DNA of 47,664 nucleotides, taken from assembly GCA_903900845.1 (NCBI GenBank), contig CAIUOU010000117.1, forward strand, positions 1 to 47,664, given 5' to 3'. This document shows, in pieces, positions 3,923 through 37,337 of this stretch; the first letter of the stretch is position 1; every line of letters starts with the position of its first letter. The notes beneath the pieces were generated by a model. The model did no database searches. It was not told the DNA's origin and saw only the letters and a program-made list of their open reading frames with translations. The DNA comes from an uncultured Opitutia bacterium. Lineage in GTDB: Bacteria; Verrucomicrobiota; Verrucomicrobiia; Opitutales; Opitutaceae. Both the position numbers and the translations under genes were made by a program.

Positions 3923-5131
3923 TCAGGCGCGGGCCGCGGCCTGCGCCAGTTCGCGCGACGCGAGCCCGCGCCGCGCAAGCGCATCGAGCGTCCAAGCGTA
4001 CTCCCGCACCAACTGGTCTTCCACCGGCAGCCGGAGCGCGGGCGGCAGAATCTCCCACGTGTACGTTTCCATCTCGAGGTGGGAACAAGATCCGGGCCGC
4101 TCCGCCAGCCAGTCGAGCGCACCCTCCAGATGATCCCGGGTGTCGCGGAACGGCTCGCCCGGCGCCGCATGCAACGGCACGTGGAAATGCACGCGCCATT
4201 CCTCGCCGGCCGGCGGGGGCCCCTGCTCCGCAAGCGCGTCGGGCAGATCGATGAAACGGCGCCTTACCTTTCCGGTCACCGGATCACCCGCGATGACCTG
4301 ATGAAGGTACACCGGCTCGGCAAACGGCGCGAGCGCCGCACGACCGGCGGCGTCGGGCGTCACCCTCAGGGCGGAACTAAGGTGGAGTTTGCTCAGCCGC
4401 AGGCCGGCGCGGGTGAGGCAATCCAGGGCCGGCGCGGCAGACTCGAACTCGACGGCGAGATGGCAGCAATCGTAGTTCACGCCGACGTGGCGCAGGAGCC
4501 CCTCCCGGTCGACGGCGGGCTCGGCGGCGCGCCACGCCTCGAAGAAGGCGACGGTCTCGGCGGTGGTCTCGATCTCGCAGCACGGCTCTGGCTCCAACCC
4601 GAGGTGAAGATCTCGGCCCGTGCGCGCGGCCAGCTCCGCGATGCCCCGGGCGCACTCCGTGAGGCGCGCGAAGATGCGCGCGCGGCGGGCGGGCTCGGCG
4701 GCGACGAACGCCTTGAACGATGCCGGGACGGTGCTGACGCTCGCGGCCGCGCCGGCCGGGGCGAGTTCGGTCAGGAGGGAAAAAAGCCGCAGCGTGTACT
4801 CAACTCGCTCGGGCATGGACCAGTCGGGCGCGTAGACCTGCTCCTTCACCCGGGTCCCGTGGAAGCTGCCATAGGGAAATCCGTTGATGGTGAAAACGTA
4901 GCAGTCATGCCGCTGCAGCCACGCGCGGAACGCGGCCAATTCCGCCGGCCGCGAAAGTTCGTCGGCGGCCCGCCGGCCGAGCCGCAGACCGATCGCGTAG
5001 GATCGGCCCGGCGCCACGCGGCGGCGCACCGGCAACGTGTGGCGTTCAAGCGCGGCGAAAGTCTCGGTCCACGTCTCGCCCCGGTGCACGTTTGTGCAGT
5101 AGGCGAGGTGCAGGCCGTGCGAAAGTTGCAT
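3923..5131 (-). CDS. eboE: Metabolite traffic protein EboE (TIM-barrel)
   Basis: The predicted protein has 402 residues and opens MQLSHGLHLAYCTNVHRGETW, the characteristic N-terminus of EboE. Also typical are FTINGFPYGSFHG around residues 80-92 and TVPASFK, then LGLEPEPCCEIE and VNYDCCHLAVEFE, which look like metal-binding edges of a xylose-isomerase-like TIM barrel. EboE is a cytoplasmic protein of unknown chemistry encoded in ebo clusters. It lies 27 bases after eboB and 16 before eboC, so the three genes are almost certainly cotranscribed. The family call is strong; the reaction is not known. Confidence 0.92.
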   Translation of the reverse strand: MQLSHGLHLAYCTNVHRGETWTETFAALERHTLPVRRRVAPGRSYAIGLRLGRRAADELSRPAELAAFRAWLQRHDCYVFTINGFPYGSFHGTRVKEQVYAPDWSMPERVEYTLRLFSLLTELAPAGAAASVSTVPASFKAFVAAEPARRARIFARLTECARGIAELAARTGRDLHLGLEPEPCCEIETTAETVAFFEAWRAAEPAVDREGLLRHVGVNYDCCHLAVEFESAAPALDCLTRAGLRLSKLHLSSALRVTPDAAGRAALAPFAEPVYLHQVIAGDPVTGKVRRRFIDLPDALAEQGPPPAGEEWRVHFHVPLHAAPGEPFRDTRDHLEGALDWLAERPGSCSHLEMETYTWEILPPALRLPVEDQLVREYAWTLDALARRGLASRELAQAAARA

Positions 5132-34418: not shown

Positions 34419-35444
34419 ATGGTCAACGTCGCTGTCGTCGGTCTCGGTTTCATGGGGGTCACCCACCTCCGCGCGTATCTCCGGCTGCCGGGCATCCGCA
34501 TCGCGGCGCTCTGCGCGTCGCGCCACTTGCCGGAGAACGGGGATTTCTCATCCGTCTCGGGCAACATCGCGATGGGCGAACCGCTGCGGCTCGACATGAC
34601 CGGCGTGCGCGCCACGAGGGATTTTGATTCGCTGCTCTCGGATCCGGCGATCGACCTGATCGACCTGTGCGTGCCCACCCCGCGGCACGTCGAACTCGCG
34701 ACCCGCGCGCTGCGCGCCGGCAAGCACGTGATCTGCGAGAAACCGCTGGCGCGGACGGCCGCGCAGGCCCGGGAGATCCTCACCGCGGCGCGGGAGGCGC
34801 GCGGTTTCTTCATGCCGGCAATGTGCCTGCGGTTCTGGCCGGGCTGGACGTGGCTGAAACAGGCGGTCGAAGCCGGCACCTTTGGGGCGGTGAAGGCAGC
34901 GCGTTTCCGGCGCGTGGGCGAGGCGCCGGCATGGGGCCGCGACGTTTATCTCGACGGAACGGCGTCGGGCGGGGCGCTGCTCGACCTCCACATCCACGAC
35001 GTCGATTTCGTGCAGCACCTCTTCGGACGCCCCACGGCGGTGTACGCGCAAGGCGTGGGCTTCCACAGCGGGGCGATCGATCACGTGGTCGCGCAATACA
35101 CGGTCGCCAACGGGGCGGCGGTTAGCGCCGAGGGCAGTTGGGCGATGGCGACGGGCCACGGCTTCAACATGGCGTACACGGTCGTTTTTGAGCGGGCCAC
35201 CGCCGACTACGACCTCGCCCGTGGCGCTGACGCGCTGAAGGTTTTCGAGGCCGGCCGAGGCGGACGCGTGGTGCCACCCGAACCCGGTGACGGCTACCTC
35301 GGGGAGCTCGACTACATGGCGGAGTGTATCGAGCGCGGGCGCGCGCCCCGCCGGGTGACTGCCGAGGATGGCGTATCGGCCGTCGAGATCTGCGAGGCCG
35401 AGGAAGAATCAATCCGCACCGGCCGCCCGGTCGCCCTAAAATGA
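34419..35444 (+). CDS. Gfo/Idh/MocA family oxidoreductase (cytoplasmic)
   Basis: The predicted protein has 341 residues from ATG at 34419 (MVNVAVVGLGFMGVTHLRAY); GLGFMG is the nucleotide-binding loop. The EKP motif is intact in HVICEKPLARTAAQA. The C-terminal substrate domain has GGALLDLHIHDVDFVQHLFG, where the HxxD pattern is catalytic in this superfamily. It lacks an export leader, unlike the other family member in the window. It forms an operon with the isomerase 16 bases upstream. Its TGA stop (35442-35444) overlaps an ATG at 35441 that opens the next frame, leading through the repeat units into the methyltransferase. Confidence 0.92.
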   Translation: MVNVAVVGLGFMGVTHLRAYLRLPGIRIAALCASRHLPENGDFSSVSGNIAMGEPLRLDMTGVRATRDFDSLLSDPAIDLIDLCVPTPRHVELATRALRAGKHVICEKPLARTAAQAREILTAAREARGFFMPAMCLRFWPGWTWLKQAVEAGTFGAVKAARFRRVGEAPAWGRDVYLDGTASGGALLDLHIHDVDFVQHLFGRPTAVYAQGVGFHSGAIDHVVAQYTVANGAAVSAEGSWAMATGHGFNMAYTVVFERATADYDLARGADALKVFEAGRGGRVVPPEPGDGYLGELDYMAECIERGRAPRRVTAEDGVSAVEICEAEEESIRTGRPVALK

Positions 35445-36370
35445 ACCGATCACTCACCCAAAGGGGTCAGGGCGTTTTCTGTTTAAACGAAGCAACCGCA
35501 TCCGCGCTGCGAAAAACATTCAACGCCCTGACCCCTTTTAAGGGGTCAGGGCGTTTTTCGTTTGAACGAACCGGCAGCTTCCGGTCCGAGCTAAACGTTG
35601 AACGCCCTAACCCCTTTGGTCACTTTCCGGCGGCGAGGATCGCTGTTTTTGCCCTATTCCTACTGGCGGCGGCACATGAGGTGGCCGCAGCCGCGCCGGC
35701 AGTCGTAGATAGCCGTCCTGCCGAAGCTCGTTATGAGACTGGCCGGCGAACGCGCGACGGCATTGGGAAATACTACTTCGACCGCGAGATTTCGCAGGTC
35801 ATGGGCCATCTAGGTGCCGGTTGGCTGGAGCGTTCCGAACGCGAGCAGGAGGAGCGCACCGACCTCTTGCTGGAAGCCTTGAGATTACAGCCGGGCGACA
35901 CCGTGGCGGATGTAGGCGCGGGCAGCGGTTACTTCACGTGGCGGATGGCGCGGCGGGTTGGCCCGAACGGTGTCGTACACGCTGTGGAGATTCAGCAGGA
36001 ATTCCTGGAACTGTTGATGGCCAATATGAAGCGCCGCGGAGTCGCCGATCAGGTTCGGCCGGTGCTGGGCGCCGTGGATGACCCGCGCCTGCCAGAGGCA
36101 TCCTGCGACGTAATTCTGCTGGTAGACGTTTATCATGAATTCGAACACCCTTTTGAGATGGCGCGGGCTATGATCCGCGCTCTCAAGCCCGGTGGCCGGC
36201 TCGTACTGGTGGAATACCGCGGCGAGGACCCCGAGGTGCCGATCAAACCGCTGCACAAGATGACGGAAGCGCAGGTTCGCCGCGAGTTTTCCGTCCACCC
36301 CGTGCGTTTCGAGCGGAACGTCAACGTGCTGCCCCGACAGCATATCTTGATCCTCCGCCGCGATCCCTGA
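35441..36370 (+). CDS. Class I SAM methyltransferase with signal-like segment; start displaced by repeats
   Basis: The frame from ATG 35441 gives 309 residues. Residues 1-60 or so are encoded by two repeat units and look random. A hydrophobic signal-like segment follows (ARIAVFALFLLAAAHEVAAAAP), then KYYFDREISQVMGHLGAGWLERSERE. The SAM-binding domain has VADVGAGSGYF, ILLVDVYHEFEHP and LKPGGRLVLVEYRGEDPEVPIKPLHKMTEAQVRRE. The mature part matches the exported methyltransferase family with xxxxVMGHxGAxWLER. No ATG, GTG or TTG lies in frame between 35441 and the signal segment; GTG 35681 and ATG 35801 would lose the signal. So either it is translated through the repeats, starts at a CTG, or is damaged. 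Less biased base use than neighbours is an impression, not computed. Confidence 0.7.
   Translation: MNRSLTQRGQGVFCLNEATASALRKTFNALTPFKGSGRFSFERTGSFRSELNVERPNPFGHFPAARIAVFALFLLAAAHEVAAAAPAVVDSRPAEARYETGRRTRDGIGKYYFDREISQVMGHLGAGWLERSEREQEERTDLLLEALRLQPGDTVADVGAGSGYFTWRMARRVGPNGVVHAVEIQQEFLELLMANMKRRGVADQVRPVLGAVDDPRLPEASCDVILLVDVYHEFEHPFEMARAMIRALKPGGRLVLVEYRGEDPEVPIKPLHKMTEAQVRREFSVHPVRFERNVNVLPRQHILILRRDP
35458..35538. repeat. REPIN-like unit 1 (inverted repeat pair)
   Basis: CCAAAGGGGTCAGGGCGTT at 35458-35476 is inverted as AACGCCCTGACCCCTTT at 35522-35538. The 45 bases between contain CTGTTTAAACGAA, also seen in related form in the other units. Confidence 0.9.
35522..35560 (+). terminator. 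Hairpin at junction of repeat units 1 and 2, terminator-like
   Basis: AACGCCCTGACCCCTT-TT-AAGGGGTCAGGGCGTT (35522-35555) is a perfect 16-bp stem, and the plus strand continues TTTCG so that five T follow CG. It lies 78 bases after the Gfo/Idh stop, a natural place for a terminator, but also inside the frame leading to the methyltransferase. Confidence 0.65.
35540..35617. repeat. REPIN-like unit 2
   Basis: AAGGGGTCAGGGCGTT at 35540-35555 is inverted as AACGCCCTAACCCCTTT at 35601-35617 (one G-to-A change). It abuts unit 1 with a single base between and contains TCGTTTGAACGAA. Confidence 0.9.
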
Positions 36371-36390
36371 CTGCCCGCGGCCGATGGGCC

Positions 36391-36461
36391 AAGGCGTTGA
36401 ATGTTTAAACTGCCGGGGACTTCGATCCACCTCGCCCAACATTTAACGCCCTGACCCCTTT
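36391..36461. repeat. REPIN-like unit 3, left arm shortened
   Basis: The right arm AACGCCCTGACCCCTTT (36445-36461) is intact. The left arm reads AAGGCGTT (36391-36398), which equals the full AAGGGGTCAGGGCGTT with 8 internal bases missing; GAATGTTTAAAC follows as in the other units. It lies 20 bases after the methyltransferase stop. Confidence 0.8.
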
Positions 36462-36473
36462 GATCCGCAAACT

Positions 36474-36554
36474 AAGGGGTCAGGGCGTTGGGCGTTTAAT
36501 TCGAAGCACGTCAAATCCTGCGGATTTAAACGTTTAACGCCCTGACCCCTTTGG
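36474..36554. repeat. REPIN-like unit 4
   Basis: AAGGGGTCAGGGCGTT at 36474-36489 is inverted as AACGCCCTGACCCCTTTGG at 36536-36554. Together with the first arm at 35458-35476 the last arm gives a perfect 19-bp inverted repeat bounding the whole cassette. It ends 6 bases before the stop codon of the SGNH hydrolase gene. Confidence 0.9.
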
Positions 36555-36560
36555 AGGGGG

Positions 36561-37337
36561 TCATTTCATGAGGGCCGTGAGGGTCGGGTGCATCGCGTCG
36601 GCCCAAAGTTGGTAACCGGCCGCGTTGGGGTGCAGTTGGTCGGGCATGATGGAGTACGGGATCTTGCCGTCCTGGCCAAGGAAGACGCGGTTAATGTCGA
36701 GAAAGCGGACCTCCTTGCCGTCATCGAGCTGTGCGAGTTCGGCGTTCACGGCGTTGATGATGTCCATCTGCCGCGTGGCCTGCGCCACGGCGTCGGCGGT
36801 GATGCTGCCATCCTTCTCCGGCCGGGGGCCGCGGGGAAAGACGGCGAGCACGAGCACCTTAACCCCGGGAATCTTGGCGCGGATCATGCCGACGATCTTG
36901 CGATTGGCGGCCGCGATCTGGGAGGCGTTGTGGGTGCGGGTGTTGTTGGTGCCGAGCATCAGCACGGCGACCTTGGGCGTGAGACCGTCGAGCTCGCCGT
37001 TTTCGAGGCGCCAGATCACGTGCTGTGTCTGGTCCCCGCCGATGCCGAAATTCGCCGGCTGCCATTGGCCGTAATATTGTTCCCAGACATGCGGCGCCCG
37101 GGTCCATCCCTGGGTGATCGAGTCGCCGATAAAAAGTACCCCGACCGGACCCGCCTTGCCGCGTACGAGGAAGGAATCGTGCATCTTACGGAAGCGGCCG
37201 CTGGGATCGTTTTTCTCGATCGCGGCGGAAGCATCGGGAATCGGGCCGGTTGGGGCAGGAGCCGCCGCGCGGGCCGCAGCGAGGAGGACGAAGCCGGCCA
37301 GCAGACCGGCGAACAGGAAGGAGCGGGTGTTTTTCAT
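36561..37337 (-). CDS. Secreted SGNH/GDSL-family hydrolase
   Basis: The predicted protein has 258 residues with a signal peptide (about residues 1-25). The four SGNH blocks are present: GDSITQGW with nucleophile S72, the Gly block in NFGIGGDQTQHVIWRLENGEL, GTNN with its Asn, and DQLHPN with D233 and H236. It closely resembles the platelet-activating-factor-acetylhydrolase-like group that removes acetyl groups from sugars or polysaccharides. Exported, so it may deacetylate substrates attacked by the window's sulfatases. It converges on the methyltransferase cassette. Confidence 0.93.
   Translation of the reverse strand: MKNTRSFLFAGLLAGFVLLAAARAAAPAPTGPIPDASAAIEKNDPSGRFRKMHDSFLVRGKAGPVGVLFIGDSITQGWTRAPHVWEQYYGQWQPANFGIGGDQTQHVIWRLENGELDGLTPKVAVLMLGTNNTRTHNASQIAAANRKIVGMIRAKIPGVKVLVLAVFPRGPRPEKDGSITADAVAQATRQMDIINAVNAELAQLDDGKEVRFLDINRVFLGQDGKIPYSIMPDQLHPNAAGYQLWADAMHPTLTALMK

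Follow-up and report, generated by a model that had tools for sequence, protein, structure and literature searches.

The window analysed here is a 47,664-nucleotide contig (C117) of an uncultured Opitutia bacterium, whose 4.4-Mb, 205-contig assembly we call G000. Three genes surround the repeats under study: a GFO/IDH/MocA oxidoreductase gene on the forward strand (34419-35444; Pfam PF01408, 3.7e-22), a methyltransferase gene, MT, on the same strand (35441-36370; PF13649, 6e-14) and, convergent with MT, an SGNH/GDSL hydrolase gene on the reverse strand (36561-37337; PF13472, 2.9e-30). The window was searched for the 17-mer arm at up to three mismatches. We obtained seven matches resembling AAAGGGGTCAGGGCGTT (four exact, three with one mismatch), all between 35460 and 36552 and none elsewhere in the window, while shuffled sequences gave a mean of 0.11 and none of 100 shuffles gave seven. 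An eighth, decayed arm lies at 36383-36408. The arms pair as four inverted units around MT: unit 1 (35461-35537, 77 bp) and unit 2 (35540-35616, 77 bp, two bases after unit 1 and with one change in its right arm) on the 5' side, unit 3 (36383-36460, 78 bp, left arm decayed) and unit 4 (36474-36551, 78 bp) on the 3' side. Direct reading shows that the outermost arms form a perfect 19-bp inverted repeat (35458-35476 and 36536-36554), whose ends are 13 and 6 bases from the neighbouring stop codons. The original prediction of seven full arms and a shortened one within 1.1 kb, of their pairing, of the perfect outer repeat and of these distances is thus confirmed, and the repeat block is real and far above chance. 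As single-stranded DNA, units 1, 2 and 4 are much more stably folded than shuffled sequences (z of -7.7, -4.9 and -6.6), the decayed unit 3 less so (-2.9), and the RNA folds are strong as well (z of -7.8 and -6.5).

MT had also been described as boxed in by these units. Units do lie on both sides, but the enclosure is not clean, since the longest likely MT frame starts at ATG 35441, in the ATGA that also contains the oxidoreductase stop, and stays open through both 5' units, the conserved body of the protein beginning only at about 35720. Upstream of the signal-peptide-like stretch of MT, the only in-frame ATG, GTG or TTG codons are ATG 35441 and a GTG that lies within the oxidoreductase gene (35324). 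The frame is also open through the 5' units in the sister genome G077, with gaps of 12 and 3 bases and a further ATG after the units. Between the two genomes the unit-coded part shows a dN of 0.375 and a dS of 0.363, and the MT body a dN of 0.064 and a dS of 1.52. When two joined units are drawn at random, a frame through them is open in 2.8% of cases; with the window sequence as the starting point and the arms kept constant, the frame stays open in 16-37% of redraws, before any factor for in-frame gaps. We rejected a selected, unit-coded N-terminus because dN/dS is about 1 and the open frame is not rare enough, and this candidate is further undercut by the ATG after the units that could serve instead in G077. 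We read the MT frame as not yet closed, rather than as a selected peptide. The signal-peptide-like stretch in G000 lacks a usual start of its own, which leaves three possibilities: production of the long form, use of an unusual start codon, or an impaired protein.

The prediction was accompanied by a proposal to search the whole genome for the repeat, whose absence elsewhere would have counted against mobility. In this search the 16-mer arm has 108 exact copies in G000 and its reversed control none, indicating that the repeat is not local. At up to one mismatch, G000 holds 138 arms and G077 holds 84, with 0-22 in each of the other 25 genomes of the genus. The stretches surrounding arms in G000, taken from the copies listed by the exact search (40 loci plus the window), contain at least 129 arms at up to two mismatches, with the consensus AAGGGGTCAGGGCGTTGAN(T/C)GTTT. 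In these stretches we counted at least 43 short (60-79 bp) and at least 11 longer (150-239 bp) inverted pairs in + ... - orientation, and the spacing between the starts of neighbouring + and - arms peaks at 44-63 bp. Nine of the 16 close tail-to-tail pairs have starts 20 bp apart, leaving about 8 bases between the CCCC of one arm and the GGGG of the next. Most arms thus belong to REPIN-like inverted pairs around a variable loop. Neither a GTAG foot nor a palindrome within the 16 conserved bases is present in the consensus of the 129 arms, and canonical GTAG REPs were rejected on both counts. The proposal of REPIN-type units therefore stands for the inverted doublet organisation but not for the canonical GTAG type, the arms matching instead the terminal-inverted-repeat (TIR) class with GGGGWSAS. 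A literature search for REPINs in taxa named Opitut- found no report.

Units lie preferentially beside C-tracts. The flank outside the arm is C-rich on the strand that reads inward: 79% of the 92 outer arms in G000 and 75% of the 57 in G077 have CCC no more than 12 nt away, against 35, 28, 20 and 15% (G000) and 26, 14, 18 and 14% (G077) in four windows further out. Among 33 isolated units, 22 have CCC at both ends, 10 at one end and one at neither. Three candidate explanations of the flanks were rejected. A palindromic target split by the unit is not favoured, since pairing between the flanks of the 33 isolated units does not exceed that of shuffled flanks (p 0.33). For a target-site duplication, the longest shared word is 3.39 against 3.14 in shuffled flanks (p 0.044, 33 units), a weak difference that does not stand clear of composition. 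A hairpin between the outer C-tract and GGGG shows no sign of specific pairing, as C is equally frequent at positions -6 to -9 and -2 to -5. At the ends of the transposase genes of relatives, CCC lies within 14 nt before GGGGTCA at 7 of 33 left ends and 12 of 27 right ends; CCC is not the rule there, and the C-tract bias therefore holds only for the units of G000 and G077.

A guide has been proposed for such site choice. According to passages of PMC8266576, the foot tetranucleotide of REPs may guide cleavage-site selection as in IS608, a proposal that bench work supports for one REP system, attempts in two further systems having failed. Selection of CCCC by the arm's GGGG would fit such a guide model; a bias at both ends is, however, unexplained by the one-sided IS608 scheme. 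With the IS200/IS605 elements covered in those passages, our family shares a HUH Y1 domain and a short foot that may choose the site; it differs in having C-tracts at both ends instead of one, and guide action is here hypothetical. In Thermomicrobium roseum, GTAG-23 REP dimers are described in part of PMC3733652 as lying inside CCGSSCC ... GGSSCGG palindromes, hence with C-rich and G-rich flanks as here, yet those targets are palindromic whereas our flanks show no pairing beyond composition. Since the arm itself ends in CCCC, a new unit beside an old one would be the expected product of a C-tract preference, which may explain the doublets.

The prediction also placed the transposase outside the window, and suggested looking for a Y1/RAYT gene with the same repeats next to it. 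A Y1_Tnp search of G000 gave five matches at four places, none on the contig of the window. Only one is a full-length Y1/HUH transposase gene, 324 codons long, on contig C4 (16592-17566; PF01797, Y1_Tnp, 4.4e-15). The same arms bracket it, in the order + - + before and - + - after, so that the gene itself sits inside a + ... - pair. Such a gene was thus found, and mobilisation of the units in trans is plausible. The nearest NCBIfam model is the REP-associated tyrosine transposase, below its cut-off (61.3 against 80 bits). The 324-residue protein has a long C-terminal part, where group-1 RAYTs are expected to carry a helix-turn-helix or Bac_DnaA_C-like domain; Pfam at E 1 reports Y1_Tnp only, and a search by sequence for a solved structure returned none at E 0.01. 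A broken C-terminal transposase fragment with two stops, which we take as a decayed second gene, lies on contig C105 of G000 (4059-4430), beside arms at 3990 and 4010.

The motifs NHFH, FQ and YIHLNP, read by eye in the C4 protein, are those of subclass 2.1, which equals RAYT group 1 (NH[YF]H, FQ, Y[IV]HLNP) in the passages of PMC6006769 that define it; this is the largest of the five groups compared there. As described in parts of PMC3733652 and PMC6006769, 20 of 26 published TIRYTs belong to this subclass and most of their repeats contain GGGG[AT][CG]A[CG]. The arm contains GGGGTCAG, which fits GGGGWSAS. Together, the transposase motifs and GGGGTCAG point to the TIRYT/TIRtron class (RAYT group 1) and not to canonical GTAG REPs. 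Among 49 loci of transposase relatives, 39 have GGGGTCA no more than about 260 bp from the gene on one or both sides, and 21 have it on both, as raw counts without a chance control; the 49 include the G000 locus itself (L180) and one contig counted twice (L181 and L210), as L201 and L217 probably are too. Relatives of the group-1 transposase are numerous in some genomes, with 21, 14 and 14 matches in G081, G064 and G066 (fragments and broken copies included), in contrast with the single-copy habit described for RAYTs.

The class itself has already been described, and the G000 family is a large population of units belonging to it. In the parts of PMC3733652 and PMC6006769 that deal with TIRtrons and TIRYTs, as here, a long Y1 HUH protein carries NH[YF]H, FQ and Y[IV]HLNP; its gene is bracketed by inverted GGGGWSAS repeats, and the repeats are dispersed as dimers and clusters (PMC3733652). 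One difference lies in abundance, since the families are called moderately abundant in the 2013 paper (PMC3733652) whereas our population reaches 108 exact arms; a passage of the survey PMC6006769 reports no REP-like sequences found with the matching subclass. C-tract siting, seen here, is unmentioned in the text passages of PMC3733652. REPINs associated with RAYTs of groups 2 and 3, as presented in part of PMC3116915, are also similar in their short inverted doublets with a variable loop and more conserved arms, in their one transposase gene with adjacent repeats and in their persistence through speciation; the present units differ in lacking a GTAG foot and a palindrome inside the arm and in belonging to another RAYT class. 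Excisions of such units are reported there for Pseudomonas.

The distribution of MT in relatives bears directly on whether it could be cargo. At E<=1e-40, 24 of the 27 draft genomes of the genus have a single MT match each, and 9 of 61 genomes drawn from the family have a match at E<=1e-60. A close SGNH gene (E<=2e-98) and MT occur together in 13 genus genomes. In four of these (G000, G077, G067 and G064) the two genes are neighbours; in the other nine they fall on separate contigs. The two stop codons are 28 bp apart in G067 and 15 bp in G064, and 190 bp in G000 and 140 bp in G077, where units lie between them; around MT-SGNH in G067 and G064, no arm was found at up to three mismatches in 9 kb of each. 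The 15-bp gap of G064 (L153, 3134-3148) is a palindrome, ACCCCGCGGCGGGGT, in the spacer that holds units in G000 and G077. The sister G077 has the same four-unit layout as G000, in the order oxidoreductase, two units, MT, units and SGNH.

The prediction of a composite cassette with MT as its cargo did not survive this comparison, because G067 and G064 have MT next to SGNH with no repeats there, and 24 of 27 genus genomes each contain a single MT match. In these draft genomes MT was found neither missing from this site in relatives nor elsewhere between the same ends, as a composite transposon would require. METHYLTRANSFERASE as cargo is not supported at this locus: judging from these gene neighbourhoods, the resident MT was most likely there first, and the units appear to have been placed around an MT-SGNH pair that occurs elsewhere in unit-free form, most simply before G000 and G077 separated. 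Nor did the strain comparison suggested with the prediction support mobility of MT, as no empty site joining oxidoreductase and SGNH without MT was seen among the 27 draft genus genomes, a weak negative. A defence role for MT was rejected too, its PADLOC mad2 match (residues 136-278) covering only the general methyltransferase fold.

We also compared unit clusters between the two sisters. In the two orthologous 5' units the arms are identical at 63 of 64 sites and the loops at 52 of 86. For 13 of 54 G000 clusters both flanks were present in the compared G077 DNA, with arms there in 11, a set biased towards arms since the G077 DNA was taken mostly around them. In a less biased set (three G000 stretches with seven clusters, placed by DNA search of G077), five clusters were placed: three with arms, one with a remnant at three mismatches and one with none. 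In the reverse direction, 14 of 33 G077 clusters were placed, three of them without arms in G000, one of which keeps a truncated arm. Presence and absence differences between the sisters thus exist without readable boundaries; no clean empty site or insertion boundary could be read among the compared clusters, and neither insertion nor excision was seen. Joining at 400 bp gives 53 clusters in G000, and 11 gaps between them measure 0.4-3 kb where 1.6 are expected for uniform placement, a roughly sevenfold excess that includes the transposase gene and the window and is judged against a null ignoring any avoidance of genes by units. Single genes with units on both sides therefore recur. Nine frames from such gaps were scanned with Pfam: eight carry ordinary domains (transporter, receptors, glycosyltransferase, hydrolases, TonB), and the ninth carries none.

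One boxed gene deserves separate mention. In G077 (L278, contig C6, 5863-9389), a TonB-dependent receptor gene boxed by arms lies between a hydrolase-like frame with no Pfam match and a methionine-synthase-like gene, and the matching place in G000 (L051, contig C83, 3090-3149) lacks the receptor gene and carries a single 60-bp unit. Close relatives of this gene (85-88% identity) occur in several other genus genomes, the best match in G000 reaching 63%. In G078 the gene has a sulfatase and a DUF1553 gene as its neighbours, and in G054 it is near the DUF1553 gene; at the corresponding G000 locus (L308, contig C110, 7376-10024) a receptor fragment of 99 residues occurs together with a pectinesterase-like frame and two arms. 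G077 shares the pectinesterase stretch, including the arm at its end (L301), so the history of the receptor gene is longer than one jump. The gene has yet other neighbours in genomes without many of these repeats, so its relocation need not depend on units. Though one case from draft genome sequences, it is the best lead for gene relocation.

Taken together, we consider it very probable that four non-autonomous TIRYT units, spread in trans by the C4 transposase, entered the spacers around a resident MT. The units would be non-autonomous inverted pairs of the consensus arm around a variable loop, moved by the single full-length group-1 RAYT/TIRYT gene of G000. Insertion into the spacers on both sides of MT would most simply predate the divergence of G000 and G077, this order of events being the one that the gene neighbourhoods suggest. 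With the GGGG of the arm presumably selecting a C-tract, a new unit would land by the CCCC of an existing arm and produce a doublet. Once in mRNA, the hairpins of the 5' units would affect MT expression.

Another reading, which we think unlikely though worth keeping in view, is that ectopic recombination between units brought the MT-SGNH block next to the oxidoreductase gene, the units marking the junction. The oxidoreductase has matches at E<=1e-60 in 12 of 27 genus genomes. G000 and G077 are the only two that place it on the same contig as MT; they are also the only genomes with oxidoreductase and SGNH on one contig, MT lying between them. The join is thus particular to these two genomes, the 5' doublet sits exactly at it, and some rearrangement at this doublet therefore took place. 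However, recombination leaves the 3' doublet unaccounted for, units lie between genes at many other places, and the data are compatible with the join either preceding or following insertion.

Selection of the units as RNA or terminator elements, the 5' doublet tuning MT translation in the operon mRNA and the 3' doublet separating the convergent genes, seems distinctly improbable. It would account for the strong RNA folds, the arms kept at 63 of 64 sites beside loops at 52 of 86, and a frame that neither species has closed across the two 5' units; against it, dN about equals dS in the unit-coded part, the frame stays open in 16-37% of random redraws of the free sites, and the same arms are found at dozens of other, unrelated sites, so that arm identity can be a property of the family. 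Finally, that the units as outer ends carried MT in as cargo is very hard to credit, in spite of the perfect outer repeat, the RAYT gene within its own + ... - pair, an oxidoreductase-MT join confined to the two genomes with units here and a unit-boxed receptor gene placed differently in G077 and G000, because the repeat-free MT-SGNH adjacency of G067 and G064 largely refutes it, 24 of the 27 genus genomes each have one MT match, and unrelated ordinary single genes also have units on both sides.

Insertion of units around a resident MT leaves room for a broader scheme, in which a GGGG guide would select C-tracts, units would seed arrays on their own arms, and genes boxed in the + ... - layout of the RAYT gene would sometimes be relocated, the TonB receptor being such a case; we hold this scheme to be doubtful, and offer it as speculation. 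G000 and G077 carry a large REPIN-like population together with one full-length group-1 gene and a measurable bias in siting beside C-tracts, and the arms are conserved in place while the silent sites of the neighbouring MT gene are near saturation. Guide-and-target models of Y1 transposases thereby become testable in RAYT group 1.
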